A program made the position numbers and the translations under genes. The notes beneath the pieces were generated by a model, which worked only from the letters and a program-made list of their open reading frames with translations, was not told the origin of the DNA and ran no database searches. Below are positions 13,688-60,422 of a stretch of 64,000 bases of DNA, piece after piece (position 1 is the first letter of the stretch; each line of letters begins with the position of its first letter). Source of the stretch: Cohnella candidum (lineage in GTDB: Bacteria > Bacillota > Bacilli > Paenibacillales > Paenibacillaceae); contig NZ_CP033433.1 in NCBI RefSeq assembly GCF_003713065.1, forward strand, positions 496,001-560,000, in the 5' to 3' direction.

Positions 13688-13703
13688 AATAGAATACTTA
13701 GAA

Positions 13704-13740: not shown

Positions 13741-13762
13741 GGCCTACCGGGGGGAGAAGGCC

Positions 13763-24439: not shown

Positions 24440-24467
24440 TTCTTCCTGCGTTCTGTCCTGTCCGCTT

Positions 24468-24496
24468 ATTATACAATCGTCTCATCAGACAGACAA
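24468..24496 (-). promoter_or_regulatory. Sigma-A-type promoter of the AraC regulator gene
   Basis: On the minus strand TTGTCT (24491-24496) and TATAAT (24468-24473) are separated by exactly 17 bases. The predicted transcript start falls about 20 bases before the start codon. The promoter overlaps the TATACAAT stretch that could serve the divergent gene, so the two directions may compete. Confidence 0.6.
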
Positions 24497-24513
24497 CGAG
24501 AGGAGCAGTCCAC

Positions 24514-36634: not shown

Positions 36635-39600
36635 TTACCGATAGACGTTGAATTCTCCGATTGTCCACCAGCGGCTGGAAGTACCCGTCTGATGAACGTT
36701 GATGTAGCGGGCGTTCTGGGTCGGGAAAGTGATTCTCGTAACCGGCTGCCCGGTCGTGGAGCCTTGCGCGACCATCGTCCATGCGCCTCCGTTCGAAACG
36801 TACACTTCATAATTGACCGGCGCGTCGGACGGGGTCGGATCGAGGCTCCAGCCGAGGCTCGGGCTGGCGTTCAATTCGACCATGCTGAACGATTGCGTGG
36901 AACCGAGGTCAACCTGGAAGAATTCGGTGCCCGCCATCGCATTGCCGGTCGTCCAATTGGTGTTCAACTCGCCGTCGATGGCCATGGCTGGCGTGGAATT
37001 GAACCCCGTTCCCTGAGCGGTCGCCGTCCAGCCGCTGTGGCTGATCGGCGTTCCCACGGAAGGCGGCGTCGGGACGCCGAGCACGTTGAAATCGTGGATC
37101 GACCACCAGTTGCCGCTTGCGGTGCCGGTCTGCGTCACTTTCACATAGCGGGCGAATTCGACCGGGAAACTGATCAGGTTATCCTGCGCCGGAATCGAGC
37201 CGCTCGCCACGGTTCTCCAAGCGGTACCGTCCATCGAGATACTCACTTGATAGCCGCGGGGATAATCGCCCGTCGACGTCGAGGCGTTCAGGGTGACGCC
37301 GCTGATCGCGTTGATTTTGCCCATGTCGACCTGAAACCATTGACCGTTCGCCTGTGCCGTGCCGCTCGACCAACGGGTCGTTAGGCTGCCGTCGAGCGTG
37401 TTGGCCGGCACGTCCGTTCCCGAAGTGGAAAAGGCGCTTGCCGTCCAGCCGGACCGGTTCAGCAGAGGAGGGCTCTGGTTATAGACGCGGAATTCCGCGA
37501 TCGACCACCAGGTGTTGTTGGAACTGCCGGTTTGCGTGACCCGGATGTATCGTGCCGTCTGGCTCGGGAAGCTGACCTGGATATCCTGGCCGAGACCGGT
37601 GCCGGAGGCGATCGGACTGCTCCAATTCACGCCGTCGTTCGATACGGCGACGCTGTAACCGCGAGCGTAATCGCCGACGCTGGGGCCGGTGTCCATGTCG
37701 ATCTTGTTGAACGTTCTCGCCGAACCCATGTCGACCTGGAACCATTGTCCGGGAGCCGGCGCGGCGCCGTTCGACCAACGCGTTTCGAGGCTGCCGTCGA
37801 GGACTCTGGAAGGCGAGCCGTTCGTTTCGGTCGACGAAGCGCTGGCTGTCCATCCGTCCCGAGGGAGCAGGCCGTTCTTGCTGTTGTACAGCGACACGTT
37901 GCCGATCGTCCAACCGCGGCTTGCGCTGGCCGTCAGTTGAACTTTCACGTATTGCTTGGTTTGCGGCGCGAAAGTGATGTTCGTCATGCCGTTCGATCCG
38001 GTACCGCTCGCGATCGCGGAACCCCAGTTGACGCCGTCGCTTGACGTGAACACTTGATAGCTGCCCGGATTGTCGTTTGGCCACAGCTGGCCCTGGTTCA
38101 GGCTGATTTGGTCGAAGGCTTTGGCAGAGCCCAAGTTCAAGGTGAACCATTGGCCGCTTGCCTGATTGGTACCGCTGTTCCACAGCGTCAATGAGGACTC
38201 ATCGATCGCTTGTTTGGCGGAGTAGGAGCCGTTCGTGTTGGAAGCGGAAGCCGACCAGCCTGCAGGGGATAAGACGTCACCCGTAGTCGGCGTCCATCGG
38301 TACGTGGCGACGGTGTCGCCGGGAATCGTATCAATGAATTGCCCGTCCGGCGTCGCGATCCGGATCGTTTTGGCGGGGGTGTTCATATTCGTGCTGTTTT
38401 TGTCGGTCGGAATCCGGTTGACGACGACGAGAACGATCGTGCCGTCCGGGTTCTTAAACGCAACGTTCGTCACGTTGCCGCCGAACAACGCGTCTGTGCT
38501 GTCGATCCGGACGGCGCCGGGTTGAATGAACCGGGAGAACTGGCCGAACGTGTAGTAGTAAGCGTTCAGCTTGTACGAGCTGCTGCCCGGCGTGCCCGCC
38601 CAGGACACCTGCGTATCGACGTAGAAGTCCGGGTTGTCGGAGGTGGCATTCTGCCAGTAGCCGGGACCGGGTCCGGGCATGAATTCGCCGAAGGTCATCC
38701 AGTAATCATAGCTGTTGAGCCAGTTGCGGAAATATTGGACGAGTTTCGCGGCACCGTTGGTAATTTCCGTCAAATGCAGCGTCTTGTCGGGGTATTGGTA
38801 ATGAATGCCGGTGGACGAGGTCATCGCGAGCCCGTCGTAATTGTGGAAGCCGAGTCCGTCGATGTACGGGCTGGCTCCGCTGGGATCTTTGAGCACTTGT
38901 TCTCCGAAATCGAAAGCGTGGATGGAGTTGTCGTCCAGCGCCCAGATTTTCGTTTTGAGCCCGTGCGATGCGAAGTTCTGCCCAAGCGTGACGGCAAAGC
39001 TGGCCTGCTGGGCGGGGGTCCAAACGGTGGTGGGGTACGGCATGTTAATTTGGGGCTCATTCTGCAAGGTGACCGCGTAAATCGGGATGCCCTGCGCCTG
39101 ATACGCCTCGACGAATTTACGGTAATAGTCCGCCAACGTACTATAATACTGGGGCAGCACGCTGCCGCCGTTAATCAGCGAACCGTTGTCCTTCATCCAG
39201 GCGGGCGGCGACCAGACGGAGGCGAAAAATTTGACCTTCGGGTTGATCTGCAGCACTTGCTGCAGCGTCGAAATCGTGCCGTTGTCGATGTCCTTCTGGA
39301 TCGAGAAGTGCGCCAGCGCCGGATCCGCGACGCCGCCGTTGTCGTCGTACGTCCAGAATCCCTTGTCCGGCAAATTCGGATCGTAATCCGAGCAGAAATC
39401 GACGCAGCCGATCTCGAGGCGCATCAGCGTATAGTTGTTGCCGACGGTCGGATCGAACAAGGCTTTCAGCGCATTCGTTTTGTCGGCAGGGCTGAGACGA
39501 TTGAGCTCGTAAATATCGTCGTTGATCATCGTTCCGCCGAAGCCGACGAACGACTGATAAGTGATCGACGGGTCGACTTGAATCGTGGCGTCTACAGGGG

Positions 39601-39793
39601 CGGTGTCGACCGGCGCCAATGTTTTACTTGGCTGTACCGAAAGCTTGTAGGAACCGGAATTGTCGTTGTACGAACTGTAAGTGACTTGAACGGAACCGCC
39701 GGTCCCGGCGGCATTCGCGGCCATTTGGGGAAGTGCAATTGCCGATAAAGCAAGCAAGGCGGCCAAAACCAGGGACATCATCGACTTTTTCAT
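36635..39793 (-). CDS. Secreted GH30 glycosidase with four CBM32-like domains
   Basis: This 1052-residue protein has a signal peptide ending near ANAA (residues 26-29). Residues about 65-515 are a GH30 catalytic core plus its beta side domain. The acid/base is Glu246 in TLQNEP and the nucleophile is Glu343 in HLTEITNG. Four F5/8-type-C (CBM32) domains follow, each with the pattern GWTASA...DG-L-TRW and a closing W-S/T-I--F-VY. Start ATG 39793 has GGGAGGA upstream; the longer frame to 39835 would include that site. GH30 members with such architecture include endo-beta-1,6-galactanases and glucanases. It is the main extracellular enzyme in the window and is transcribed against its neighbours. 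Confidence 0.9.
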   Translation of the reverse strand: MKKSMMSLVLAALLALSAIALPQMAANAAGTGGSVQVTYSSYNDNSGSYKLSVQPSKTLAPVDTAPVDATIQVDPSITYQSFVGFGGTMINDDIYELNRLSPADKTNALKALFDPTVGNNYTLMRLEIGCVDFCSDYDPNLPDKGFWTYDDNGGVADPALAHFSIQKDIDNGTISTLQQVLQINPKVKFFASVWSPPAWMKDNGSLINGGSVLPQYYSTLADYYRKFVEAYQAQGIPIYAVTLQNEPQINMPYPTTVWTPAQQASFAVTLGQNFASHGLKTKIWALDDNSIHAFDFGEQVLKDPSGASPYIDGLGFHNYDGLAMTSSTGIHYQYPDKTLHLTEITNGAAKLVQYFRNWLNSYDYWMTFGEFMPGPGPGYWQNATSDNPDFYVDTQVSWAGTPGSSSYKLNAYYYTFGQFSRFIQPGAVRIDSTDALFGGNVTNVAFKNPDGTIVLVVVNRIPTDKNSTNMNTPAKTIRIATPDGQFIDTIPGDTVATYRWTPTTGDVLSPAGWSASASNTNGSYSAKQAIDESSLTLWNSGTNQASGQWFTLNLGSAKAFDQISLNQGQLWPNDNPGSYQVFTSSDGVNWGSAIASGTGSNGMTNITFAPQTKQYVKVQLTASASRGWTIGNVSLYNSKNGLLPRDGWTASASSTETNGSPSRVLDGSLETRWSNGAAPAPGQWFQVDMGSARTFNKIDMDTGPSVGDYARGYSVAVSNDGVNWSSPIASGTGLGQDIQVSFPSQTARYIRVTQTGSSNNTWWSIAEFRVYNQSPPLLNRSGWTASAFSTSGTDVPANTLDGSLTTRWSSGTAQANGQWFQVDMGKINAISGVTLNASTSTGDYPRGYQVSISMDGTAWRTVASGSIPAQDNLISFPVEFARYVKVTQTGTASGNWWSIHDFNVLGVPTPPSVGTPISHSGWTATAQGTGFNSTPAMAIDGELNTNWTTGNAMAGTEFFQVDLGSTQSFSMVELNASPSLGWSLDPTPSDAPVNYEVYVSNGGAWTMVAQGSTTGQPVTRITFPTQNARYINVHQTGTSSRWWTIGEFNVYR

Positions 39794-39897
39794 TCGTGAT
39801 CTTCCTCCCTTTGGGTTAACGAAAACTCGTCTCACGGCAGCAACGACCTTGCGCTGAAAATCTTTCCGGTCATGAATCCCCCTCTTTCATCCATTTT

Positions 39898-40090: not shown

Positions 40091-40156
40091 AAGTCGAAAA
40101 AGCGTTACCGCGAGGTCGAAGTTTAGGTGGCGTAACCGCAGCCTTATCCCTAAACT
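40091..40156 (+). promoter_or_regulatory. Module 3 operator copy 1 and -10, upstream of sensor kinase 3
   Basis: AAGTCGAAA (40091) is followed by GGTCGAAG (40114-40121), giving two GTCGAA half-sites 22 bases apart. TAAACT is at 40151, 36 bases past the start of the second half-site. The same arrangement recurs at 45206 and 46916. Confidence 0.55.
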
Positions 40157-40211
40157 GAGACAGGATGCACCATTTGTAAAAACGCCCGTCCAAATCTATG
40201 ATGGAAGAAGC

Positions 40212-40238
40212 AGGCCGCCGATCGTCGGGCGGCCTTTT
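40212..40238 (+). terminator. Terminator-like hairpin in the leader of sensor kinase 3
   Basis: AGGCCGCC (40212-40219) pairs with GGCGGCCT (40228-40235), followed by TTTT. It sits between the candidate promoter (-10 at 40151) and the kinase ribosome site at 40246, so readthrough would be needed for kinase expression. Confidence 0.7.
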
Positions 40239-40261
40239 CTCGAATAAAGGGGAAGTGCTCG

Positions 40262-41992
40262 ATGAGAAGGCTTATTTATCCTTGGGAAGGCCGAAACTCC
40301 ATACGGTTCAAGCTGGCGCTCGGAATCCTGCTCATCGCGGGGCCGCTGCTCGTTTTGCTGTATTATTACAATTTTTACGCGGTCCGTGTCGTTCACAACC
40401 AAGTCTCGATATCGAACCGCAACATGGTCTCCCTGTACATGCATCAGATCGATTCCGGATTAAACACGGTCGACCAGTACTTGCTGGCTTTGGCGACTTC
40501 CAACTATGACGTCAAAATATTGGCCTCTCCTCCTTCCGACGATGAATACATGCTGGCTAAAATCCGTCTGTCCGACCAAATCAACAAGGACCTGCTGATG
40601 TACAGAACCGTCGCCAATTCCATCTTCGTCTATTCCGATCGACAAGGCGATTTTACCGATGCCGTTACGCAATCCAGCGATCAGGAATATTCGGCGGTTT
40701 CCCAATATTTGCACGATGGGCTGTTGGCCGTACCGTCCTCAAACGAAATCGATAACCGTTGGTTCGTCAGGGAAATCGGCGGGAGCCATTATCTCATCCG
40801 ACTTCTTCGCGCGGAGAATGCCTGGGTAGGCGCATGGGTGAACCTGGGCACCTTGAAGCAGCCGCTCTCTTTTATCCATCTGGGGCCAAACGGGGCATCT
40901 TTGTTCCTGGACGACCGAAGCCGCCCTTTGACCGACGATGCGTTTTTGGAGCAAAATGATATTGTTCTGCAACCGCAGCAGCAAACGGATTCCGGCCGGA
41001 AGTTCCTCGTGATCGCGGAGCATTCCTCCAAAGGGGATTTCAGCCTGGCGGCCGTCATTCCGACGGCGACGGTACTGCAAAATCTTCCTTATTTGAACCG
41101 GATCGTCATCGTGATCACGGTGATCGGGGTCTTGCTTCTTCCGGTGTTCTTCCTGTTCCTTCGCAGGGTGGTGCTCGTTCCCCTGAACCGGCTCCTCGCC
41201 GCCATGAAACGGATCGGGGACGGCAATGTCCAAACCCGCGTAGAGCCGATCCGGACTTCCGACGAATTCATGCTCGTGCATGCCACGTTCAACCGGATGA
41301 TGGAGCAGATGGAAGAGCTGAAAATCAACGTGTATGAAGAGCAGCTGAACAAACAGAAAGCGGAGCTTCAGCATTTACAGCTGCAGATCAATCCCCATTT
41401 TTTCATGAATACCTTGAACTTGATTTACAGCTTGGCTTTGGACAAGGATTACGAGTTGATCAAGGAAATGACGCTTCGCCTCGTCCGTTATTTCCGTTAT
41501 ATGTTCCGCAGTAATTTGACCTTCGTGCCTCTTAAAGACGAACTGGAGCATGTCCGCAATTACATCGGCATTCATGAGCTGCGTTACCAGCAGAAGCTGG
41601 CGTTTCGGGTGGACGTGCCGGACGATCTGAGGCTCGTGCCGGTTCCCCCGCTGATCATCCAATTTTTGGTGGAAAATGCCTTAAAGCATGGTTATACCGA
41701 TCGACAGGATGTCCCCGTCATCGAGATCCGGGTTCGTCTGGACGAGTCGGGTTCGGTGCCTTATATGGTGATTACGGTTCAGGACGAAGGGCAAGGCTTC
41801 CGGGAAGACACGCTTCATCTGCTGAACGCGGGTGAACGCGTCGTGGACGAACAAGGCGAGCACATCGGAATATGGAACCTATGGCATCGTCTCCGGCTGC
41901 TGTACGGCGCCCATGCGGAAATCGTCTTTTCCAACGCGGTGCCAAGCGGGGCCGTCGTCCGCATGATACTGCCTTTACGCAATGAATCTTAG
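40262..41992 (+). CDS. Sensor histidine kinase, YesM type (module 3)
   Basis: This 576-residue membrane kinase has a first helix in LALGILLIAGPLLVLLYYYN, a sensor domain, a second helix in IVIVITVIGVLLLPVFFLFL, a HAMP domain (LVPLNRLLAAMKRIGDG), phosphoacceptor His379 in INPHFFMNT and a HATPase domain (IIQFLVENALKHG, VQDEGQGF, GIWNLWHRL). AAAGGGGAAG lies before ATG 40262. It is followed after 18 bases by its response regulator. Confidence 0.93.
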   Translation: MRRLIYPWEGRNSIRFKLALGILLIAGPLLVLLYYYNFYAVRVVHNQVSISNRNMVSLYMHQIDSGLNTVDQYLLALATSNYDVKILASPPSDDEYMLAKIRLSDQINKDLLMYRTVANSIFVYSDRQGDFTDAVTQSSDQEYSAVSQYLHDGLLAVPSSNEIDNRWFVREIGGSHYLIRLLRAENAWVGAWVNLGTLKQPLSFIHLGPNGASLFLDDRSRPLTDDAFLEQNDIVLQPQQQTDSGRKFLVIAEHSSKGDFSLAAVIPTATVLQNLPYLNRIVIVITVIGVLLLPVFFLFLRRVVLVPLNRLLAAMKRIGDGNVQTRVEPIRTSDEFMLVHATFNRMMEQMEELKINVYEEQLNKQKAELQHLQLQINPHFFMNTLNLIYSLALDKDYELIKEMTLRLVRYFRYMFRSNLTFVPLKDELEHVRNYIGIHELRYQQKLAFRVDVPDDLRLVPVPPLIIQFLVENALKHGYTDRQDVPVIEIRVRLDESGSVPYMVITVQDEGQGFREDTLHLLNAGERVVDEQGEHIGIWNLWHRLRLLYGAHAEIVFSNAVPSGAVVRMILPLRNES

Positions 41993-42010
41993 AGAACGGG
42001 GGGGTCCTTC

Positions 42011-43600
42011 ATGACACAATTATTGATCGTCGACGATGAACCGCTCGCCGTTCGAAGCGTACTGAACGCGGTGGACTGGGACAGCCTGGGCGTTTCCCGT
42101 GTTTTTACCGCTTATGGCGCTAACCAGGCTAAAGAGATATTCGCGGGTGAAGCGATCGACGTTATGCTTTGCGATATCGAGATGCCTCAAGAGAGCGGGC
42201 TGAACCTGCTGGCGTGGGTTCGCGAACATCACCCCGCTACGGAGTCCATCTTCCTCACGTGCCATGCGGATTTCTCCTTTGCCCAACAGGCGATTCAGCT
42301 CGGAAGTCTGGACTACTTGCTGAAGCCGATTCCACCGGAGGAGCTGGAAAGTGTCATTCGCAAGGCGGTTAGACAGATTTCGGCGAAGCATGAAATCAAA
42401 CAAGAGAGCGAATCCTGGCGTAAGCATCATCCGCTTTTCATCGAGCGGTTTTGGACGGATATATTCAGAAGGTCAATCCCCTCGAATCCCGCGGCCATCA
42501 AGGCGGCGGCAGAGGAAAGAAAGATCGGCTTGCCCGCGGACATGCAGGTGCTGCCGCTGCTGATTCAGGTGAGAAGGTGGCACAAACCGTTAAGCCTGCG
42601 CGACGAGAAGATCATGGAATACGCTTTGATCAATACGCTGCAGGAGATGATACAGGGCGCGGGAACCTTGGCGGGAGTCGTGCCGGTGGAACGGGGACAG
42701 CTGCTGGCCATTCTCTCGGGGCTGAAAGAGGATGCAGCCGCCCTGAAGAGGATCATGGAATCCTACATCGCCTCCTGCCGGAAGTTTTTCTTTTGCGATA
42801 TGACCTGTTACGTGGGCACCTCGGTCGCCGTTCATGAGTTTCCGGAAATTTCGAACCGTCTGCTTCAGCTTCGCAAAGCCTATGTCACGTCGGACAATGA
42901 GGCGATTCTGCTGGACGGAAAACCGGCTAGTGTCGTTGCGATTCCCCGTCCGGATCTCAAGGTGTGGCGGATCCTGCTTGAAGAAGGGTCCAAAACCCGG
43001 GTGCTCCAGGAAGTGGATGGATATTTGGACACGCTGAAGACGATGTCCGGGGTGTCCTCCGCGTTTTTGAATCAAATCGTGCAAGACGTGCTGCAGATCG
43101 TCTATTCCTATCTTGACGACATGGGAATCCAAGCGCATCAGTTGTTTCAAGATCCCGTTTCCGTCGAATCGCTGGAACGTTCCACCCATTCGGTAACGGA
43201 CTTGAAGGTGTGGTCGGACCATTTGATCGATAAAGCGTTCCGCTATGCCGCGGAGCTGAAAGAATCCGCTTCGGTGGTCGACAAGGTGAAAGCTTATATT
43301 ACGAAGCATCTGGAGCAAGAATTGAATCGGGAGAACATCGCGGCCTCTTTCTTTTTGCATCCGGACTACATCAACCGGCTGTTCAAGAAGGAGACCGGCA
43401 TGTCCATGACGGAATTCCTGCTCCATGAGCGCTTGCGGATGGCGACCGAGCTGCTGGAGAAGACGGAGCAGCCGGTTACCGTCATCGCCGCGAATATCGG
43501 CTACACGAACTTGTCCCATTTCGCGAAGATCTTCCGGAAGCACACCGGCTTGAATCCCAACGAGTACCGGCAATCGAAAAGGAACGAGGGAAAGGCATGA
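42011..43600 (+). CDS. Response regulator, YesN type with AraC DNA-binding domain (module 3)
   Basis: This 529-residue protein has a receiver domain with IVDDE and phosphoacceptor Asp55 in MLCDIEMPQ, a long linker, and a C-terminal AraC domain (REN-IAASFFLHPDYINRLF and VTVIAANIGYTNLSHFAKIF). The phosphorylation loop reads CDIEMP rather than the SDIRMP/TDIRMP of the other two regulators. The stop overlaps the start of a solute-binding protein gene (ATGA), tying the regulator and that protein in translation. It is the likely binder of the GTCGAA repeats at 40091, 45206 and 46916. Confidence 0.94.
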   Translation: MTQLLIVDDEPLAVRSVLNAVDWDSLGVSRVFTAYGANQAKEIFAGEAIDVMLCDIEMPQESGLNLLAWVREHHPATESIFLTCHADFSFAQQAIQLGSLDYLLKPIPPEELESVIRKAVRQISAKHEIKQESESWRKHHPLFIERFWTDIFRRSIPSNPAAIKAAAEERKIGLPADMQVLPLLIQVRRWHKPLSLRDEKIMEYALINTLQEMIQGAGTLAGVVPVERGQLLAILSGLKEDAAALKRIMESYIASCRKFFFCDMTCYVGTSVAVHEFPEISNRLLQLRKAYVTSDNEAILLDGKPASVVAIPRPDLKVWRILLEEGSKTRVLQEVDGYLDTLKTMSGVSSAFLNQIVQDVLQIVYSYLDDMGIQAHQLFQDPVSVESLERSTHSVTDLKVWSDHLIDKAFRYAAELKESASVVDKVKAYITKHLEQELNRENIAASFFLHPDYINRLFKKETGMSMTEFLLHERLRMATELLEKTEQPVTVIAANIGYTNLSHFAKIFRKHTGLNPNEYRQSKRNEGKA

Positions 43601-45105
43601 AACGGCGGGGAAAATGGACAGGCTTGGCTTTATTCGCGGCATGGGTTGGGCTGCTCGCCGCCTGCGCCTCCGGAGGAACGGCAGTCAGCGACGAAACGGC
43701 CGCACCCAGCGCGTCCGCTGCGGAACCCTATGAAGTCGTCATGGGGTTTCCGGTATTGGGCGACGTTCCGAAGGATCTCCAGCAAGTTGAGGACGCGATC
43801 AGCAAGATCACGACGGATAAAATAAAAGCCAAAGTCAGGCTGATGGCCATTCCGTTCGGGCAGTGGTTTCAGCAATCGAACCTCATGCTTACGGGCAACG
43901 ATCAACTGGATGTCATGCTCGTTGATTTTTCCCACTACAGCGAGATGGTTTCAGCGAAACGACTGACCCCGTTAGATGAGCTGCTTGCGTTGCATGGCCA
44001 AGGAATCAAGGATGTTTTAGGGTACAAGCTGGGCGTCGCCCGAGTGAACGGAAAGATCTACACCGTTCCGACGAATCAACTTCCTCTTGGCGGCTCGGCG
44101 ATTTATATGCGAAAAGATCTTTTTGATCAAACGGGACTCGATTTGAACCGCGTAAAATCGGTGGATGACCTCGATCGCGTTTTTAAGGCCGTAAAGGAGA
44201 GCAATCCGCAGATCGCCGTTCTGGCTCCCAATGTGCAAGGCGCAATGCCCCTGACCACGGCCTTCGCAGCGTCGGGAGAATACGACTCCTTGCTGGACGG
44301 GTTGGGGGTCGTCAAGAATTCGGACGGCGGCAGGAAAGTAGTCGACTGGTACGAAACGCCGGAATATTCGTTTGCGCTTAAGAAGCTGAGAAGCTGGTAC
44401 GTGGCGGGCTACCTTCCGAAGAATGCGGCCACGCTCAGAACGAACAACACGGAACAGGTCAAATCCGGTAAAGCCTTCGCCTTGATCGATTCCGATAAAC
44501 CCGCCGCGGAGAAACAGCAATCCGCCGTCGTTGGCAGAGAGATGGTGAAGGTTTCCTTGCAACCGCCTCTCGTGACGTCGGCAGGGGTGTTGGGTCTGAC
44601 GTGGGCGATTCCCGCGCATAACTCCCGAAATCCGGCTAAGGCAATGGAGTTCTTGAACTTAATTTATACGGACAAGGATATCGTCAATCTGATTAACTTC
44701 GGCATCGAAGGAAAACATTACGTCAAAAAAAGCGAAAACGTCATTTCCATTCTCCCCGGCGATGGATATCGGATGCGCCAAAGCTACATGTTCGGAAATG
44801 CGCACCTGACCTATCAGACGGACACGGAAGATCCGAAGGCGCGTGAAAAAGGTTCGGCATTCGAAGCGGCCATGGCGAAGTCGAACACCTTGGGTTTTAC
44901 TCCCGATCTGGACGACGTGAAGACGGAAGTCGCCGCGGTGAAGAACGTGGTCGCCCAATACGTTCCTGCTTTGGAGACGGGCAGCGTGAATCCGGACAAG
45001 GTACTTCCGCAATTCATAGAGAAACTGAAGGCGGCAGGCATAGACAAGATTATCGCCGAGAAACAAAAACAGCTCGACGCATGGCTTGCCGCGGGCCGCA
45101 AATAA
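43597..45105 (+). CDS. Extracellular solute-binding lipoprotein, DUF3502-type, coupled to the regulator (module 3, copy A)
   Basis: This 502-residue lipoprotein has lipobox LLAAC (Cys23). It is strongly similar along its whole length to the next gene product (shared EPYEVVMGFP/ETYEVVMGYP, LMAIPFGQW/LLAIPFAQW, APNVQGAMPLTT, EKQKQLDAWLA). The C-terminal region matches the DUF3502 pattern. It starts within the regulator stop. It has its own terminator and no permease in its transcript, so it may deliver ligand to the kinase's sensor domain rather than, or as well as, to the importer. Confidence 0.9.
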   Translation: MKRRGKWTGLALFAAWVGLLAACASGGTAVSDETAAPSASAAEPYEVVMGFPVLGDVPKDLQQVEDAISKITTDKIKAKVRLMAIPFGQWFQQSNLMLTGNDQLDVMLVDFSHYSEMVSAKRLTPLDELLALHGQGIKDVLGYKLGVARVNGKIYTVPTNQLPLGGSAIYMRKDLFDQTGLDLNRVKSVDDLDRVFKAVKESNPQIAVLAPNVQGAMPLTTAFAASGEYDSLLDGLGVVKNSDGGRKVVDWYETPEYSFALKKLRSWYVAGYLPKNAATLRTNNTEQVKSGKAFALIDSDKPAAEKQQSAVVGREMVKVSLQPPLVTSAGVLGLTWAIPAHNSRNPAKAMEFLNLIYTDKDIVNLINFGIEGKHYVKKSENVISILPGDGYRMRQSYMFGNAHLTYQTDTEDPKAREKGSAFEAAMAKSNTLGFTPDLDDVKTEVAAVKNVVAQYVPALETGSVNPDKVLPQFIEKLKAAGIDKIIAEKQKQLDAWLAAGRK

Positions 45106-45116
45106 GACGAAACGAC

Positions 45117-45151
45117 GGTCGCTTTCTCGTTCAGAGAAAGCGGCCTTTTTT
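45117..45151 (+). terminator. Terminator after binding protein A
   Basis: CGCTTTCTC (45120-45128) pairs with GAGAAAGCG (45134-45142), followed by GCC and TTTTTT. It separates the kinase/regulator/binding-protein-A transcript from the next promoter. Confidence 0.9.
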
Positions 45152-45205
45152 ATACATAAGCAAACGCGATTTCTCTAATCGACATAAGGAATGACCCTCG
45201 GCGCA

Positions 45206-45272
45206 AAGTCGAAATAGTGTTGTCCGTTGGTCGAAGTTCGAGCGGTTGCCCGACATGTAAGCGCTGTATGAT
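45206..45272 (+). promoter_or_regulatory. Module 3 operator copy 2 and -10, upstream of binding protein B
   Basis: AAGTCGAAA (45206) and GGTCGAAG (45229-45236) repeat the half-sites at 40091. TATGAT is at 45267, 37 bases past the second half-site. Further upstream, at about 45155, lies CATAAGCAAACGCGATTTCT, which also occurs in near-identical form at 60337. Confidence 0.55.
45256..45269 (+). promoter_or_regulatory. cre-like site overlapping the -10 of binding protein B
   Basis: TGTAAGCGCT matches the first ten positions of the CcpA consensus; the last four bases (GTAT) do not fit well. It overlaps the -10 hexamer, a position suited to catabolite repression. Confidence 0.35.
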
Positions 45273-45317
45273 GGGATCAGATTCAGGCAAAATCAAAATT
45301 GTCTATGGGGGTATCTT

Positions 45318-46844
45318 ATGAGCAAGTGGAAGAAATTAGCGGGTGTCGCCCTGGCGGCGACCATGGTGTTGGTAACGGCCTGCGGAAATAGTAATAAGAG
45401 CGAATCTTCGCCATCTTCCAGCTCCGCCGCGCCGAGCTCGTCCGCTGCGCAGACGGATGCCGGGGAAACGTACGAAGTGGTCATGGGATATCCGTTGCTG
45501 GGCCCGGTGCCGAAGGATCAGGCCGAAGTAGAAGCCGCCATCAGCAAGATTACCAAAGAGAAGATCAACGCGACCGTGAAGCTGCTCGCCATTCCTTTCG
45601 CCCAGTGGTCTCAGCAGGCGAACTTGATGCTTACCGGCAATGAGAAATTGGATCTCATGCTCACGGATTTCGCGACCTACGGCTCGATGGTTTCCACCAA
45701 GCGTTTTGCCGCATTGGACGACCTGATCGCCCAGAACGGCAAGGGAATTCAGGAAGCGCTCGGAGACAAGCTGAATGCGGCCAAGATCGACGGCAAAATT
45801 TACGCCGTGCCGGTCAACCAGCTTCCTGAAGGCGGTTCGGCCCTCTTCCTGCGCAAAGATTTGCTGGATCAAGCGGGCGTTGACGTAAGTACGGTAAAAT
45901 CCGTGGACGACCTGGATAACGTATTTAAAGCCCTGAAAGAGAAAAATCCGCAGATGACGGTTTTGGCTCCCAACGTACAAGGGGCGATGCCGCTCACCAC
46001 GATTTTCGATTCGCTGGGTCAATATGATTCTTTGCTCGACGGATTGGGCGTACTCAATGTCAATGACGCCGGCATGAAGGTCGTGGACCTGTACGAGACG
46101 CCGGAATATGCCGCCGCCATGAAGAAGCTGAGAAGCTGGTATCAAGCGGGTTACCTTCCGAAAGGCGCGTCTACCATCAAGATTTCGAATACGGATCAGG
46201 TGAAATCGGGCAAGGCGATCTCGTTCGTCGACTCGGATAAACCGGCATCGGAGAAAAAGGAGGCGGCAATCGTCGGATTTGACGTGGCGAAGGTACCCAT
46301 GCAAAAGCCGCTCCTGACGACCCAAGGCGTTCTTGGTCTCGATTGGGCGATTCCCGCCAACAACTCGAGGAACCCGGCTAAAGCCATGGAATTCCTGAAT
46401 TTGATGTATACCGACAAAGATATTATCAATCTCATCAACTTCGGCATCGAAGGCAAGCATTACACCAAGAAGAGCGATAACGTTATCTCCATTACCGGAG
46501 ACGGTTACGGCATGCACCAGACCTTCATGTTCGGCAATGTACACCTCACGTACCTGACGGACACGGAAGATCCGAAATCCCGGGAAGACGGCAAAGCCTT
46601 CGAACAAACCATCGTCAACTCGAAAGCGGTCGGATTCGCCCCGAACCTCGACGCGGTCAAAACGGAGGTGGCCGCGGTCAAGAACGTCACCGCCCAATAC
46701 GTGCCGGCTCTGGAAACGGGCAGCGTGGATCCGGATAAAGTGCTCCCGCAGCTGATCTCGAAGTTGAAGGCGGCGGGCATCGACAAAATCATTGCCGAGA
46801 AACAGAAGCAGCTTGATGCTTGGCTCGCCTCAAACGGCAAGTAA
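45318..46844 (+). CDS. Extracellular solute-binding lipoprotein, DUF3502-type (module 3, copy B)
   Basis: This 508-residue lipoprotein has lipobox VTAC (Cys22), then a Ser-rich linker to about residue 50. It is the paralogue of the preceding gene product, with highest similarity in the C-terminal half. It is expressed from its own promoter with the GTCGAA operator and followed by a terminator-like hairpin, then the permease promoter. It is the more likely transport partner of 47036/47969. The ribosome site (GGGGG at about 45306) is weaker than usual here. Confidence 0.91.
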   Translation: MSKWKKLAGVALAATMVLVTACGNSNKSESSPSSSSAAPSSSAAQTDAGETYEVVMGYPLLGPVPKDQAEVEAAISKITKEKINATVKLLAIPFAQWSQQANLMLTGNEKLDLMLTDFATYGSMVSTKRFAALDDLIAQNGKGIQEALGDKLNAAKIDGKIYAVPVNQLPEGGSALFLRKDLLDQAGVDVSTVKSVDDLDNVFKALKEKNPQMTVLAPNVQGAMPLTTIFDSLGQYDSLLDGLGVLNVNDAGMKVVDLYETPEYAAAMKKLRSWYQAGYLPKGASTIKISNTDQVKSGKAISFVDSDKPASEKKEAAIVGFDVAKVPMQKPLLTTQGVLGLDWAIPANNSRNPAKAMEFLNLMYTDKDIINLINFGIEGKHYTKKSDNVISITGDGYGMHQTFMFGNVHLTYLTDTEDPKSREDGKAFEQTIVNSKAVGFAPNLDAVKTEVAAVKNVTAQYVPALETGSVDPDKVLPQLISKLKAAGIDKIIAEKQKQLDAWLASNGK

Positions 46845-46863
46845 TAAGCATTCGATGTAGAGG

Positions 46864-46896
46864 CGATCGCTCTCCGGACCAGGGGAGCGATCGTTT
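46864..46896 (+). terminator. Terminator after binding protein B
   Basis: CGATCGCTC (46864-46872) pairs with GAGCGATCG (46885-46893), followed by TTTT. An operator and a promoter for the permeases follow directly. Confidence 0.8.
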
Positions 46897-46915
46897 TGCA
46901 TTTAATCCGAAGCGG

Positions 46916-46981
46916 AAGTCGAAATTGTGTTGTTACGAGGTCGAGCGCGCGGTAGTGGGGGGGAGCCGGCCTCTTTACAAT
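46916..46981 (+). promoter_or_regulatory. Module 3 operator copy 3 and -10, upstream of the permeases
   Basis: AAGTCGAAA (46916) is followed by GGTCGAG (46939-46945). TACAAT is at 46976, 36 bases past the start of the second half-site. Unlike modules 1 and 2, the permease pair here has its own activator-type promoter. Confidence 0.55.
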
Positions 46982-47035: not shown

Positions 47036-47953
47036 ATGAAGAAGACGCTCAGCAGAAATAAGGCATACCTGCCGATCCTGGTCATGATGCTGCCGGGCAT
47101 GGTTTATTTGCTCATCAACAACTACTTGCCTATGGCGGGACTCGTGATCGCCTTTAAAAATATCGACTATTCCAAAGGGATCTGGGCAAGCGATTGGAAC
47201 GGGTTCACCAACTTCAAATTCCTGTTCCAGACGAACGACGCGTATGTCATCACCCGAAACACGCTGCTGTATAACGGCGCCTTTATCGTCATCGGTCTCA
47301 TCTGCGCGGTTGGGGTCGCGATTCTATTGAACGAAGTCAGAAACCGTTTCATGTCCCGATTGTATCAGACCGTCATGCTGCTTCCTTTTCTGATCTCGAT
47401 GGTCATCGTCAGCTACCTCGTATTCGGTTTTCTGGGCGAAGATCAAGGATACCTCAACCATACGTTGCTGCCGAAGCTCGGATTGGAACCGATCTCCTGG
47501 TACATGGAACCGAAGTACTGGCCGTATATCCTCGTTCTTGTGAACCTGTGGAAATCGATCGGCTTTAACTGCGTGATCTATCTGGCTTCCATCATCGGGA
47601 TCGATCAAGAATATTACGAAGCGGCCACCCTGGACGGGGCGAGCAGGTGGCAGCAGATCCGCAAGATTACCCTCCCGCTGATCTCGCCCGTGATCATCAC
47701 GTTGACGCTGCTGGCGATCGGCAGAATCTTCTATTCCGATTTCGGATTGTTCTATCAAGTGCCCATGAATTCCGGCATGCTGTACGACACGACCAACGTC
47801 ATTGACACTTATGTGTTCCGGGGCTTGCTGCAGAATAACGATATCGGCATGTCCTCGGCGGCCGGATTCTATCAATCGGTGGTCGGGTTCGTCCTCGTTA
47901 TCTTGACCAACTACGCGGTCCGCAAGTTCAGCAAAGACAACGCACTATTCTAA
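47036..47953 (+). CDS. Sugar ABC transporter permease, LplB type (module 3)
   Basis: This 305-residue membrane protein has six helices and an EAA loop at YYEAATLDGASRWQQIRKIT. ATG 47036 has GGAAGGGGA upstream; the frame's extension to 46820 runs through the terminator and operator and is rejected. It pairs with 47969 to form the module 3 importer. Confidence 0.93.
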   Translation: MKKTLSRNKAYLPILVMMLPGMVYLLINNYLPMAGLVIAFKNIDYSKGIWASDWNGFTNFKFLFQTNDAYVITRNTLLYNGAFIVIGLICAVGVAILLNEVRNRFMSRLYQTVMLLPFLISMVIVSYLVFGFLGEDQGYLNHTLLPKLGLEPISWYMEPKYWPYILVLVNLWKSIGFNCVIYLASIIGIDQEYYEAATLDGASRWQQIRKITLPLISPVIITLTLLAIGRIFYSDFGLFYQVPMNSGMLYDTTNVIDTYVFRGLLQNNDIGMSSAAGFYQSVVGFVLVILTNYAVRKFSKDNALF

Positions 47954-47968
47954 GGCGAGGTGAGAAGC

Positions 47969-48859
47969 GTGAATCAAGACAAAGGCATATGGCAGTGGGT
48001 CTCCCACATCATCTTGGCGGTTTTCTGCATCCTGTGCATCATCCCTTTCGTGCTTCTGGTCTCGGCTTCCTTGAGTTCCGAGGACAGCATTCTGCAGAAC
48101 GGTTACGCCTTTCTTCCGAAGGTGTTCAGTCTTGACGCCTACGAGTATCTGACGGGAAACATGTCCGTCATCGGCAGGGCATACGGCATCACGGTAATCG
48201 TAACCGCAATCGGAACCGCCGTGAGTCTGCTGATGACCGCCATGCTGGGGTACGGCCTATCCCGCAAGGAAATACCGGGTTACAAGTTGTATACCTTCCT
48301 CGTTTTCTTCACGCTGTTGTTCAATGGGGGGTTGGTGCCGACCTATCTGGTCTACACGCAAATGTTCGACGTGAAGAACACGCTTTGGGCCTTGCTCATT
48401 CCGGGCCTGCTCATGAACGGATTCAACGTTCTGCTTGCCCGTTCTTTCTTCATCAATACGATCCCGGGGCCCGTTCTTGAATCGGCCAAGATCGACGGAG
48501 CAGGGGAATACCGCATTTTCTTCCAGATGGTGCTTCCGCTGTCCTTGCCCATCATGGCCACCATCGGTTTGTTTACCGGCATCATGTACTGGAACGATTG
48601 GAACAACGGGTTGATTTACATTACGGATCAGAAGCTGTACAGCATTCAAATTTTGCTCAACCAGATTATGCAGAATATCGAGGCGCTGAAAACTGCCAGC
48701 TCCGCCTATGGTGATGCCTCCGCCAACGCCGCGGAGCTGCCCGGCGAAACCGCGCGCATGGCAATTGCCGTCATCGGGGTGCTGCCGATCATGATCGCGT
48801 ATCCGTTCTTCCAGCGCTTCTTCGTGAAAGGCATCGCCGGAGGAGCCGTTAAGGGCTGA
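47969..48859 (+). CDS. Sugar ABC transporter permease, LplC/YtcP type (module 3)
   Basis: This 296-residue membrane protein shows FNGGLVPTYLVYTQ and an EAA loop near VLESAKIDGAGEYRIFFQMV. GTG 47969 is chosen because AGGTG is six bases upstream; GTG 47960 is a possible alternative giving 299 residues. The C-terminus QRFFVKGIAGGAVKG is normal. The GH78 gene starts 46 bases later. Confidence 0.92.
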   Translation: MNQDKGIWQWVSHIILAVFCILCIIPFVLLVSASLSSEDSILQNGYAFLPKVFSLDAYEYLTGNMSVIGRAYGITVIVTAIGTAVSLLMTAMLGYGLSRKEIPGYKLYTFLVFFTLLFNGGLVPTYLVYTQMFDVKNTLWALLIPGLLMNGFNVLLARSFFINTIPGPVLESAKIDGAGEYRIFFQMVLPLSLPIMATIGLFTGIMYWNDWNNGLIYITDQKLYSIQILLNQIMQNIEALKTASSAYGDASANAAELPGETARMAIAVIGVLPIMIAYPFFQRFFVKGIAGGAVKG

Positions 48860-48905: not shown

Positions 48906-51749
48906 TTGAAGATCACCCGAATGAAAACGAACCGCATCGTGAATCCGCTGGGCTTCGAATTAGGAAAACCGCGCCTGTCCTATGTCGTCAGCGAGACGGA
49001 AGCAGCCAAACAAATCGCCGCGCGAATCGAAGTGTCGCTGGACGAAAGTTTCACCCAAGTCATGTACGATACCGGCCGAAGCGCTGAAATCAGCAGTCTC
49101 GCGTTTGAACTGCCGATTGCGTTAGTGCCAAGAACCCGATATTACTGGCGCGTGACGGTTTGGGCGGACAACGGAGACGAGGCGACGAGCGAGCCCGCTT
49201 GGTTCGAAACCGCGAAGCTCGAGGAGAAGTGGGCAGCGGAGTGGATTTCGCCGAAACTGGATAAGGAAATCCATCCCGTGTTAGGAACGGCATTCTCGAT
49301 CGCCAAGGAAGTCAAGAGCGCGCGGGCTTACGTATGCGGTTTGGGATTGTACGAAATGGAGTTGAACGGCGAGAAAGTCGGTGAAGAGTATCTGACTCCG
49401 CATTTCAACGCCTATGACAAATGGCTGCAATATCAAACCTACGACATTACGGACAGGATTCTACCGGGCGTTAACAACGTTGAAGTCATGCTCGGGAACG
49501 GTCTTTACAAAGGCCGTTTCGGATTCGAAGGCGGCAGGCATGAGGTTTATGGAGACCGATTCGCCTTGCTGTGCGAGATCGTCATCACGCATCCGGACGG
49601 GACGTCGACCGTCGTGGGTTCCGATCAGACTTGGCAGGCGAGGAAAAGCCGCGTGATGGCGAGCGGTCTCTATGACGGAGAAATCTACGATGCGGCGTTC
49701 CAAGACGATGCCCGATTCGGCGTAGAGAAGATTGAAATCGGGTATGACCGGCTGCAGGCTAGACGAAGCCTGCCGGTCGTCATCCGCGAGCGCCTGAAAC
49801 CGGTCGAGATTCTGACCACTCCGGCAGGAGAAACCGTGCTGGATATGGGCCAGAACATGGTCGGCTGGATTCGGTTCCGCAACCGTGCGCCCAAGGGAGC
49901 GGAAATCGTCTTGCAGTACGGCGAGCTCCTTCAGGAAGGAAACTTCTACCGGGAAAATCTTCGAACGGCCAAAGCGGAATTCCGGTATGTTTCCGATGGC
50001 GAAGGCGCCTGGGTTAGACCGCATTTCACGTTTTACGGATTCCGTTACGTGAAGGTCACGGGTTGGCCGGGTGAATTGCATCCGGACGACTTTATCGGAT
50101 GCGTGCTTCACTCCGACATGGAGCAAATCGGCAGCATCGAGACAAGTAATCCGTTGGTGAACCGTTTGTTTCTGAACGCTCTTTGGGGACAGAAGGGCAA
50201 CTTCCTGGACGTTCCGACGGATTGCCCGCAGCGGGATGAGCGGATGGGCTGGACCGGCGATGCGCAGGTGTTCGCCGGTACCGCTAGTTTCAATATGGAT
50301 ACGCACGCATTTTTCGCGAAATACGGTTATGACCTCTGGAAAGAGCAAGCGGCGAGAGACGGCATGGTTCCCATGGTGATACCGGTGGCTACCGTGGACG
50401 GCGGCGGTTCCAGCGCATGGGGCGACGCCGCAACGGTCATACCGTGGACGGCCTACCTTCACTCCGGGGATTCGGCCATTCTCGAACAACAATTCGACAG
50501 CATGAAGGCGTGGGTCGATTATATCAAGCGAATCGACGACTCGTCCGGGAGCAGGCGGCTGTGGGCGGCAGGCTTCCATTTCGGGGACTGGCTGGCCTTG
50601 GACGGAGACGATCCGGCGTCGCCGCTTGGGGGGACGGAGACCGCGTTTATTTCATCCGCCTACTACTGTTACTCTTCTATGCTGGTCGCCAAGGCCGCGA
50701 AAGTGCTTGGAAAGCGCGAAGAAGCCGAATTCTATGAAAACCTGTCCAATGAAGTGAAAACCGCCATCCGAGCCGAATATTTCACGCCGACCGGACGCTT
50801 GGCCCTGAATACCCAAACTGCGCATGTCGTGGCCCTCTTTATGGATTTGGCGTCGGAGAAGGATCGCGGGCGCGTTGCGGACGATCTTCGCGCCAGGTTG
50901 AAGAAGGATCGAAATCATCTCAAAACCGGGTTCGTGGGAACGCCTTATCTGTGCAGGGCGCTTTCCGAAACCGGAAATTCGGATCTGGCTTACACGCTGC
51001 TGCTGAACAAGGATTATCCCAGCTGGCTGTATGCGGTGACGTTGGGCGCGACGACGATCTGGGAGCGTTGGAACTCGGTGTTGCCGGACGGGAAAATCAG
51101 CGGAACGGACATGAACTCGCTGAACCATTATGCTTACGGATCCATCGTGGAATGGATGTACCGTTATGTCGCCGGGATTAACCCGGCGGAAGACAAACCC
51201 GGCTTCAAGCACGTCCGCTTGACGCCTCAGCCGGACTTCCGGTTGAAGTTCGCCAAGGCGTCTGTCGACTCGGCTTCGGGCCGGTACGAGAGCGGTTGGG
51301 ATTTAAACGAAGAGGGCGGCTTACGATTCCGCTTCGTCGTTCCGTTTGACGCGACCGCCACCGTAGAACTGCCGGATGCCAAGCGGGAAAACGTGCTGGT
51401 GAACGGCCGTCCGCTGCAAGACGCCGCGATCTCCTCCGTGCAGAACGATAAGTTCGTACAAGCGGAACTGACCAGCGGAATCTGGGAGTTTGCGTACCCG
51501 CCTGAAATCGAATATATCAAGCGTTGCAGCACGCATATGCCGATTCAGGATTTCATGCAAAATGAAGAAGCGAAAAAAGCGTTGTTCGACGCCTTGCCGC
51601 ATCTTGAGGAACAGTTGCAGGGGATGGTTCGGAACTGGGGCTCCAGCTCTTTAAGGGAAGTCAGCCACCTGCCGTTTTTGAAGATTTCGGTGGAGGCTTT
51701 GGATGAATTGGATCAACGTCTCAAGCCAATCAAGGCGGTCGTGGATTAA
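48906..51749 (+). CDS. Alpha-L-rhamnosidase, GH78, with C-terminal helical module (module 3)
   Basis: This 947-residue cytoplasmic GH78 enzyme is colinear with the one at 20365. It has an Ig-like N-terminus, Bac_rhamnosid_N (VCGLGLYEMELNGEKVGEEY), a concanavalin-like domain and a barrel with DCPQRDERMGWTGD. It starts at TTG 48906 with AAGGAG at 48891-48896; ATG 48921 is an alternative. The last ~72 residues (51531-51746) form the same helical module as in 20365 and 58570. It is the final gene behind the module 3 permeases, and the GH1 genes follow on the same strand without a clear terminator. Confidence 0.92.
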   Translation: MKITRMKTNRIVNPLGFELGKPRLSYVVSETEAAKQIAARIEVSLDESFTQVMYDTGRSAEISSLAFELPIALVPRTRYYWRVTVWADNGDEATSEPAWFETAKLEEKWAAEWISPKLDKEIHPVLGTAFSIAKEVKSARAYVCGLGLYEMELNGEKVGEEYLTPHFNAYDKWLQYQTYDITDRILPGVNNVEVMLGNGLYKGRFGFEGGRHEVYGDRFALLCEIVITHPDGTSTVVGSDQTWQARKSRVMASGLYDGEIYDAAFQDDARFGVEKIEIGYDRLQARRSLPVVIRERLKPVEILTTPAGETVLDMGQNMVGWIRFRNRAPKGAEIVLQYGELLQEGNFYRENLRTAKAEFRYVSDGEGAWVRPHFTFYGFRYVKVTGWPGELHPDDFIGCVLHSDMEQIGSIETSNPLVNRLFLNALWGQKGNFLDVPTDCPQRDERMGWTGDAQVFAGTASFNMDTHAFFAKYGYDLWKEQAARDGMVPMVIPVATVDGGGSSAWGDAATVIPWTAYLHSGDSAILEQQFDSMKAWVDYIKRIDDSSGSRRLWAAGFHFGDWLALDGDDPASPLGGTETAFISSAYYCYSSMLVAKAAKVLGKREEAEFYENLSNEVKTAIRAEYFTPTGRLALNTQTAHVVALFMDLASEKDRGRVADDLRARLKKDRNHLKTGFVGTPYLCRALSETGNSDLAYTLLLNKDYPSWLYAVTLGATTIWERWNSVLPDGKISGTDMNSLNHYAYGSIVEWMYRYVAGINPAEDKPGFKHVRLTPQPDFRLKFAKASVDSASGRYESGWDLNEEGGLRFRFVVPFDATATVELPDAKRENVLVNGRPLQDAAISSVQNDKFVQAELTSGIWEFAYPPEIEYIKRCSTHMPIQDFMQNEEAKKALFDALPHLEEQLQGMVRNWGSSSLREVSHLPFLKISVEALDELDQRLKPIKAVVD

Positions 51750-51774
51750 CAAATAGGCGAGGGGAGATTTGGAC

Positions 51775-53037
51775 ATGGGTGTTGCATTTCCGAAAGACTT
51801 TCTCTGGGGTTCGGCAACGGCCGCGTATCAAGTAGAGGGCAATAACACGAACAGTGATTTTTGGGCGGAGGAGCAGGCGGAAGGATCTCCCTATGCCGAC
51901 AAGTCCGGCGACGCTATCGACCATTACCGGTTGTATCGGGAAGATATCGCGTTAATGGCAAGCTTGGGGCTCAAAGCTTACCGGTTTTCCATTGAGTGGG
52001 CGCGCGTAGAGCCCGCACCGGGTCAGTTCTCGAAGTCGGATATCGAACATTACCGGGATGTGCTGCTGGCCTGCCGCGAGCACGGTTTGGTACCGTTCGT
52101 GACGCTGCATCATTTCTCGTCCCCGCAATGGCTGATGAGATTCGGCGGGTGGGCGAGCCCGCAAGTTCCGGAATTATTCTCACGTTACTGCGAATTCGTT
52201 TTTCAGGAACTGGGGGAGCACATCCCTTACGCACTCACATTCAATGAGGTCAATTTGCCCACCATGCTGCGCGCGATCTTCACGAAGATCGGCATCGTGC
52301 CGCCGGTCGGCATCGACGCCGCATCCTGGTCCGCTCCTAAGTGGAGGGAGTCTGCCGCCGCATTGTGCGGAACGACTCCGGATAAGTATGTCACGTTCCA
52401 TATGATCTCGGACGAGACGAAGATCGGGTTGCTGAAAGAAGCGCACCGGAAAGCCAGGGAAACGATCAAACGGATTTCTCCGGACACCCAAGTCGGCTTT
52501 TCGATGGCCTTGTCCGACATTCAGGCGGCATCGGGCGGAGAAGCGCAAGCTGAAGCCAGGTGGCAGCTCGTATTCGGCCAATTCGCGGACATGGCGGAAG
52601 GCGACGATTTCTTCGGCCTTCAGAATTACACGCGGGAAGTGTACGGTCCAGAGGGCCCAATCCCTCCAGCCGAAGGTGCGGAGCTGACGCAGATGAAGTA
52701 CGAATATTACCCGGAAGCGCTGGGGAATGTGGCCCGTAAAGTCGCCAAGACGCTCTCTCTCCCTATCTTCGTGACCGAACATGGCGTTGGGACGGATGAC
52801 GATAGCAAGCGCGTCGCGTTTATCCGCCGAGGTTTGCAGGGTCTTCAGTCTGCCATCGAAGAAGGGATCGACGTAAGAGGGTACTTACATTGGTCGACCT
52901 TCGACAATTTCGAATGGAACTCCGGCTACGGCATGACGTTCGGTTTAATCGCCGTGGACAGAACGACTCAAGAGCGAAAAGTGAAAGAGAGCGCGCGGTA
53001 TTTGGGGCGCATTGCGCAAAGCAATACGATGAACTAG
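51775..53037 (+). CDS. GH1 family glycosidase with atypical active-site motifs, copy A
   Basis: This 420-residue protein without a signal peptide opens with FLWGSATAAYQVEG and has the GH1 barrel throughout. The acid/base motif reads TFNEVN (Glu158) where nearly all GH1 enzymes have TFNEP. The nucleophile motif reads VTEHG (Glu335) instead of TENG. Both catalytic acids are kept, so activity is likely but on an unusual substrate. It is somewhat shorter than typical 440-480-residue members. ATG 51775 has GAGGGGAG upstream; TTG 51769 is too close to it. It is a tandem paralogue of the next gene. Confidence 0.88.
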   Translation: MGVAFPKDFLWGSATAAYQVEGNNTNSDFWAEEQAEGSPYADKSGDAIDHYRLYREDIALMASLGLKAYRFSIEWARVEPAPGQFSKSDIEHYRDVLLACREHGLVPFVTLHHFSSPQWLMRFGGWASPQVPELFSRYCEFVFQELGEHIPYALTFNEVNLPTMLRAIFTKIGIVPPVGIDAASWSAPKWRESAAALCGTTPDKYVTFHMISDETKIGLLKEAHRKARETIKRISPDTQVGFSMALSDIQAASGGEAQAEARWQLVFGQFADMAEGDDFFGLQNYTREVYGPEGPIPPAEGAELTQMKYEYYPEALGNVARKVAKTLSLPIFVTEHGVGTDDDSKRVAFIRRGLQGLQSAIEEGIDVRGYLHWSTFDNFEWNSGYGMTFGLIAVDRTTQERKVKESARYLGRIAQSNTMN

Positions 53038-60397: not shown

Positions 60398-60422
60398 TAT
60401 GATGGACCTGTAAGCGCTGACA
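60398..60422 (+). promoter_or_regulatory. Promoter -10 and cre site upstream of the bicupin gene
   Basis: TATGAT (60398-60403) is followed by TGTAAGCGCTGACA (60409-60422), which fits the CcpA consensus TGWAARCGYTWNCW at 13 of 14 positions. A weak -35 (TTATCG, 60374) stands 18 bases before the -10. About 60 bases upstream, CATAAGCAACGGCGATTTCT (60337) nearly repeats a sequence at 45155. Confidence 0.5.

Follow-up and report, generated by a model that had tools for sequence, protein, structure and literature searches.

Predicted direct-repeat operators of a YesN-type regulator in Cohnella candidum and a candidate operator plan for related sugar modules

Which protein reads the three direct repeats that recur within one sugar-uptake module of Cohnella candidum, and do comparable modules in related bacteria follow the same plan? 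The module lies in a 64,000-nucleotide stretch of the forward strand (NCBI RefSeq assembly GCF_003713065.1, contig NZ_CP033433.1, positions 496,001 to 560,000), hereafter the window, and contains a sensor kinase gene followed by a gene for a response regulator at 42011-43600. An earlier note, made from the sequence alone, had placed half-sites about 22 bases apart at 40091, 45206 and 46916, in front of the kinase gene, the gene of solute-binding protein (SBP) B and the permease genes. It had also listed -10-like hexamers 36, 37 and 36 bases further on, each without a good -35, and had read this layout as that of an AraC-type activator, pointing to autoregulation by the 42011 regulator. The analysis described here indicates that the three repeats, designated O1 to O3 (Table 1), are very probably operators of the module's own YesN-type regulator, which would act on them as a class II activator.

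In the window, AAGTCGAAA occurs at 40091, 45206 and 46916, with one extra copy at 4275 (four observed compared with 0.64 expected). The exact pattern GTCGA-N17-GTCGA is present at 40093, 45208 and 46918 and at no other place in the whole window, and the direct repeat is therefore exactly 22 bp. With up to one mismatch, this pattern shows no excess in the window (12 matches compared with 10.0 in shuffled sequences), so that the short pattern by itself is not significant. The putative -10 hexamers of the three presumed promoters, P1 to P3, start at the distances given earlier when measured from the second GTC, and the best -35 matches at a spacing of 15-19 bp reach 3 of 6 positions for P1, 4 of 6 for P2 and 2 of 6 for P3. 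The descriptive part of the earlier note is upheld.

The earlier note had proposed a search of this genome and its relatives with the half-site pair. Using a pattern derived from O1-O3 themselves, GTCGANNNNGYGTTN7GGTCGA, three matches without mismatch were found in the 5,289,049-bp genome, all of them in the O1-O3 module. At up to three mismatches only a weak excess is seen (56+49, or 105, compared with 33+42, or 75, for the reversed pattern). The sole one-mismatch match, at genome position 494123 (locus L006), was set aside, as it falls, on the strand of the match, within an open frame of 585 codons that by eye resembles a glycosidase.

Among orthologous loci, the window included, the site is kept in 6/6 for O2, 5/5 for O3 and 2/6 for O1. 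The locus of G010 (regulator 73% identical) has O1, O2 and O3 alike, and their GTCGA boxes are exact. An exact GTCGA-N17-GTCGA lies 5' of the binding-protein gene in each of the five other loci, namely G010, L063 (P. phyllosphaerae), L089 (P. cellulosilyticus), L104 (G145) and L077 (strain SY21-1). An exact site also lies 5' of the permease genes in all four other genomes (G010, G067, G098 and G145); here G067 and G098 were taken as the species of L063 and L089, and the O3 count covers the window and these four genomes.

The plan extends well beyond these close relatives. A first survey of 129 upstream regions (kinase, binding-protein and permease) from 48 loci gave a peak of GTC-GTC pairs at 22 bp, with 73 pairs on the coding strand compared with 5 on the other. 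The layout test was then fixed in writing before the held-out modules were fetched, and the layout passed it. Non-redundant sets were obtained by removing regulators at least 80% identical, which left 41 of 49 discovery modules (8 removed) and 54 of 79 held-out modules (25 removed); L092-L101 (10 of 39 loci, mostly short or partial matches), the short stretches L033-L062 and L102 were dropped. The complete plan, GTC, 21-23 bp, GTC and then TANNNT at +36/37, recurs in 84 of these 95 modules, that is, in 34/41 of the discovery set and 50/54 of the held-out set. The 111 discovery regions contain 57 GTC pairs at 22 bp, 51 of which have TANNNT at +36/+37, while the 149 held-out regions contain 63 such pairs on the coding strand (14 on the other), again with the hexamer at +36/+37 in 51. 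For pairs at 23 bp, TANNNT at +36 accompanies 14/22 in the held-out set and 7/16 in the discovery set. When all 64 trinucleotides were scanned at 31 spacings (1,984 combinations), GTC at 22 ranked first in both sets, with 55 occurrences in discovery and 58 in held-out regions compared with means of 5.3 and 7.9 at other spacings.

Altogether 126 full sites were obtained, with repeat spacing and -10 distance of 22/36 in 61, 22/37 in 41, 23/36 in 21 and 21/37 in 3, and their -35 matches are no better than those of shuffled DNA. Operators are found in 55 of 88 binding-protein regions, 51 of 81 permease regions and 20 of 91 kinase regions, and the regulators of operator-bearing modules are 31-100% identical to the 42011 regulator (median 43). 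The half-site profile reads AAGTCG, with A at position 6 and A at position 14, and the proximal half-site favours GGTAG at positions 11-15, with GGTA 7 bp past GTCG. Half-sites of two boxes about 10 bp apart, as in this family profile, are the arrangement of an AraC/XylS-type operator. The 23-bp repeat with a -10 at +36 (21 sites) belongs to a subset of modules (L069, L072, L075, L087 and others), and the Hungatella loci L081 and L090 have a 21-bp repeat with a -10 at +37; repeat spacing may be a clade trait.

The operator and the regulator also vary together. Mutual information was computed between the columns of the regulator C-terminal domain and the operator positions over the 84 modules, and among 3,488 column-position pairs the top pair, both before and after average-product correction, joins column 455 to the base after GTCG. 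In the 42011 regulator this residue is N455 (codon 43373-43375), within LHPDYINRLFKK, the recognition helix of the first helix-turn-helix (HTH1). Modules with N or D at 455 have A after GTCG in 20/20 proximal and 19/20 distal half-sites (7 of the 20 modules are held-out), compared with 3/64 and 5/64 for modules with S, T, A or V. On a tree built without the HTH domain, parsimony gives four gains of N/D at 455, three of them on branches where the base changed (hypergeometric 1e-4); the fourth gain falls inside a clade whose base had already changed. Solved relatives of the regulator by sequence include AraC, SoxS and MarA, and in the alignment with SoxS, N455 falls opposite the Q of YLQRMF (residue 39 by the printed range), which we take to be the counterpart of MarA Gln45. 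In the part of the MarA literature drawn on here, Trp42, Gln45 and Arg46 contact bases (PMC3315485).

Since the base that follows GTCG varies with residue 455 of the regulator, the module's own regulator is the most likely ligand of O1-O3, and orthologue conservation and the rigid family layout argue for the same assignment, in line with the AraC-type activator proposed earlier. Two regulator monomers would sit head to tail, 22 bp or two helical turns apart. HTH1 would read box A (AAGTCG-A) of each half-site, and HTH2 would read box B about 10 bp downstream (G-GTT in the distal and a YGGTAG-like sequence in the proximal half-site). Given a -10 at +36/37, the expected place of a -35 element is box B of the proximal half-site, at about +13 to +19; the proximal half-site thus occupies the place of the -35, and the downstream monomer of the bound, presumably phosphorylated regulator would replace the absent -35 contact. 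The regulator would then hold RNA polymerase on the -10 hexamer 36-37 bp past the second GTC, as in class II activation. A signal through the kinase, presumably evoked by an inducing sugar, would turn on SBP B from P2 and, from P3, the permeases and probably the adjoining glycosidases, with transcript starts expected to follow the three hexamers. The kinase-regulator operon would also be switched on from P1, in the window species and its nearest relative.

For the wider family, the evidence tilts somewhat toward a shared grammar. In Paenibacillus and its kin, the YesN-type regulators of sugar modules would recognize GTC, 22-23 bp, GTC, 36-37 bp and TANNNT, with residue 455 setting the base after GTCG (N or D specifying A); judged from sequence comparison, we place this generalization a little above an even chance.

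Several observations weigh against these proposals. The kinase site is not conserved in 4/6 orthologous loci, and the 330 bp upstream of the kinase in L063, L089, L104 and L077 contain no GTC pair at 21-24 bp. The full operator is missing in 11/95 modules, whose regulators are 30-47% identical to that of 42011. The invariance of GTC arises by construction, because GTC was required by the site definition, and the held-out modules are not fully independent, because they were drawn from the same list of relatives. A crude base-by-base autocorrelation of the upstream regions had its peaks at multiples of three, and 22 bp did not stand out in it (the best value, for permeases, was 1.5 standard deviations); it was replaced by the trinucleotide scan. 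As for the residue rule, two columns that lie outside the helix, 467 and 468, likewise covary with the base that follows GTCG (6.3 and 4.25, compared with 6.55 for column 455), so that part of the 455 signal may reflect shared ancestry. The signal between HTH2 and box B is strong in raw form (columns 503, 505 and 506) and is mostly lost after correction, with a mean of 0.08 for helix 6 against box B and a best value of 3.1 for A505.

Autoregulation, as suggested in the earlier note, is the claim that fares least evenly. O1 is intact, with both GTCGA boxes, 22 bp and a -10 at +36, it stands at the operon's own promoter (40093), as expected of an autoregulated operon, and it is kept in G010; however, the four other orthologous loci lack it and kinase regions seldom have one across the family. 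Judging from these sites, we consider real autoregulation of the kinase-regulator operon in the window species a reasonably good prospect, in which O1 may raise expression on induction above the level set by a basal promoter. An alternative that deserves attention, although we find it doubtful, is that O2 and O3 are true operators and O1 is weak or a relict, the operon being driven mainly by a second promoter-like site, P1', through a terminator-like hairpin, with little autoregulation. P1' and the hairpin do sit between O1 and the kinase start codon. By eye, -10-plus-hairpin leaders resembling this one stand 5' of the kinase in G010, L089, L104 and L077, and those of L089, L104 and L077 have no operator; among the window and these four loci, a strict hairpin rule lists only the window and L089. 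Under the same rule, leader hairpins occur in 15/91 kinase, 1/88 binding-protein and 8/81 permease regions and are not family-wide, and the whole kinase leader folds only slightly better than shuffled sequences (z-score -1.1, not significant). If the hairpin at 40212-40238 acts as a leaky terminator, it may keep kinase levels low. A precedent for such an operon is offered by Clostridium cellulolyticum, where, in the sections of the report considered, xydRS is not under the control of XydR, an AraC-type regulator (PMC3572039). The intact O1 and its retention alongside a regulator as similar as that of G010 are the reasons for preferring autoregulation in the window species.

An AraC-family regulator from some other part of the genome is an unlikely reader of O1-O3, even though the genome holds seven matches to the 42011 regulator (two others among the matches listed are 43% and 39% identical) and the window itself has two further kinase-regulator pairs of the YesM/YesN type. 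Exact sites are confined to the O1-O3 module in the genome, and in two other modules of the same genome column 455 holds T and S and the half-sites differ from those of O1-O3. Furthermore, the base after GTCG follows the regulator of the same module even among modules sharing a genome: in 16 same-genome pairs of modules of different class, from 7 genomes, the cognate assignment of residue 455 to base was obtained in 32/32 cases, which restates the residue-base rule but excludes a genome-wide composition effect.

Still less probable is a role of O1-O3 as repression operators of a member of the same family. Sequence alone leaves activation unproven, but the fixed 36-37 bp to a -10 without a -35 fits an activator that replaces the -35 contact, a constraint that repression does not impose. 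Chance can be practically discounted, as can the recent copying of a single promoter: the tandem SBP A and SBP B genes show that local duplication has occurred, but O2 and O3 persist at orthologous loci in which one binding-protein gene was seen, and the layout far exceeds background across the family.

Compared with known systems, each taken here from selected passages of the cited reports, the proposed operators resemble those of Bacteroides hybrid systems and of XylS. In Bacteroides, hybrid two-component systems (HTCS) with an AraC-type DNA-binding domain have predicted direct-repeat operators, with tandem sites a mean of 21 bp apart and motifs predicted for 16/36 HTCS (PMC3878776). The likeness lies in the direct-repeat operator and the AraC-type response regulator, which in HTCS serves polysaccharide use. 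In contrast, the present module has a separate kinase and regulator, belongs to a Gram-positive lineage and shows a GTC core, a spacing of 22 (or 23) bp and a fixed -10; the HTCS passages covered contain no -10 rule and no residue-base pair (PMC3878776). XylS binds two 15-bp direct repeats at Pm, each with box A TGCA, 6 bp and box B GGTA, through helices 3 and 6 (PMC5481539). The order of box A and box B in direct repeats is the same here, with GGTA favoured in the proximal half-site, whereas XylS, unlike the 42011 regulator, is an effector-binding activator rather than a response regulator, and its box A differs.

In XydS/XydR of C. cellulolyticum, an AraC-type response regulator likewise lies beside its kinase; XydR is needed for expression of polysaccharide-use genes and binds upstream DNA in gel shifts (PMC3572039). 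It differs in that the portions consulted give no derived consensus site and report its own genes as not XydR-regulated. The pneumococcal YesNM and TCS07 are also kinase-regulator pairs of the YesMN type; for YesN, parts of a direct-repeat motif were suspected without a clear repeat motif, and the RR07 candidate motif, CTWWWWWWAG, differs from the GTC repeat described here, as far as the extracts used show (PMC11034029). The literature searched, largely in the form of such extracts, showed no operator worked out for the YesN regulator of a sugar module in Gram-positive bacteria; prior art in subscription journals is possible.

Table 1. Coordinates of operators, promoter elements, terminators and genes of the module within the window
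Feature	Position	Strand	Remarks
O1: AAGTCGAAAAAGCGTTAC, GTCGAAGTTTAGGTGG at 40115	40091-40132	+	22-bp direct repeat 5' of kinase gene
O2: AAGTCGAAATAGTGTTGT, GTCGAAGTTCGAGCGG at 45230	45206-45247	+	5' of SBP B
O3: AAGTCGAAATTGTGTTGT, GTCGAGCGCGCGGTAG at 46940	46916-46957	+	5' of permease genes
Putative -10 of P1, TAAACT	40151-40156	+	starts 36 bp past second GTC
Putative -10 of P2, TATGAT	45267-45272	+	starts 37 bp past second GTC
Putative -10 of P3, TACAAT	46976-46981	+	starts 36 bp past second GTC
P1', promoter-like TTGTAA-17-TATGAT	40174-40202	+	3' of O1; weak, 3 such sites in region vs 5.9 in shuffles
Terminator-like GC-rich hairpin with T run	40212-40238	+	between P1/P1' and kinase start; unlisted by terminator scan
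Sensor histidine kinase (HAMP, His_kinase, HATPase_c)	40262-41992	+
YesN-type response regulator, receiver and AraC-type double HTH (HTH_18, HTH_AraC)	42011-43600	+
SBP A (SBP_bac_1, DUF3502)	43597-45105	+	start overlaps regulator stop
Intrinsic terminator	45117-45145	+	between SBP A and O2; fold z-score -4.9, terminator scan
SBP B (DUF3502)	45318-46844	+
Terminator-like hairpin	46864-46893	+	between SBP B and O3; fold z-score -6.6; unlisted by terminator scan
ABC permeases (BPD_transp_1), two	47036-47953, 47960-48859	+
GH78 rhamnosidase	48906-51749	+	short gaps, permeases' strand
GH1	51769-53037	+	short gaps, permeases' strand
Divergent GH30 gene	36635-39835

A kinase with a His_kinase domain adjoins a regulator with a receiver and an AraC-type HTH, which we take to be a pair of the YesM/YesN type, and next to it lie the genes of a sugar ATP-binding cassette (ABC) importer, with two DUF3502 binding proteins and two permeases; a binding protein and permeases are found near the orthologues too. 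The strong hairpins 3' of SBP A and SBP B divide three presumed transcription units, and the glycoside hydrolase (GH) genes GH78 and GH1 are probably part of the P3 transcript, because they share its strand and follow at short gaps. No operator precedes SBP A, which shares 66% identity with SBP B. In each of the five orthologous loci that were read, the regulator has one binding-protein gene nearby and no extra SBP A was seen; SBP A may be a tandem copy specific to this lineage, or a protein dedicated to sensing. In Ruminiclostridium cellulolyticum, a second binding protein beside the kinase and regulator makes CuaDSR a three-component sensor (PMC10384115). SBP A may be a co-sensor like CuaD, a likeness that is analogy only.

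Two further kinds of site were noticed in the window. The sequence TGTAAGCGCTGTAT at 45256-45269, which overlaps the -10 of P2, resembles the cre consensus of CcpA with two mismatches, and TGAAARCGCT stands at a like position in G010, L063 and L089. Across the operator promoters of the family, cre matches with up to one mismatch occur in 9/55 binding-protein promoters compared with 0.95 in shuffled sequences, in 4/51 permease promoters compared with 1.5 and in 1/20 kinase promoters compared with 0.7, so that CcpA control of P2 is suggested, although not decisively, by these matches. A match to the consensus without mismatch, TGTAAGCGCTGACA, lies at 60409-60422, near the start of a cupin open reading frame (ORF) that begins at 60383. 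Two more 22-bp GTC repeats, at 13530 and 24413, have TATTAT-like -10s at +37 and are alike around the second GTC and the -10. The former lies close to where the first kinase ORF (13520-15532) begins, the latter close to the beginning of a GH78 ORF (24433-26556); each overlaps its ORF in the form listed, and translation of these ORFs may truly begin further on. These repeats may be operators for a different YesN-type regulator encoded in the window, but a loose pattern for them also matches three minus-strand places, and chance remains a possible explanation.

Taken by itself, each of O1-O3 is an ordinary operator of the already known AraC/XylS kind, and the useful part is the family-wide rule. 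Paenibacillus-type bacteria seem to hold many YesN-like regulators: a loose first look over 197 genomes gave 7 to 510 candidates per genome, many of them not true members. If the rule is true, a very large number of kinase-regulator pairs that are still uncharacterised would have targets readable from sequence, and the fixed plan together with the residue-base rule would make each such module a directly testable regulon. The grammar would also show how a single cell keeps its numerous paralogues free of cross-talk, and the residue-base rule would offer an approach to the question of what insulates paralogous regulators from one another.

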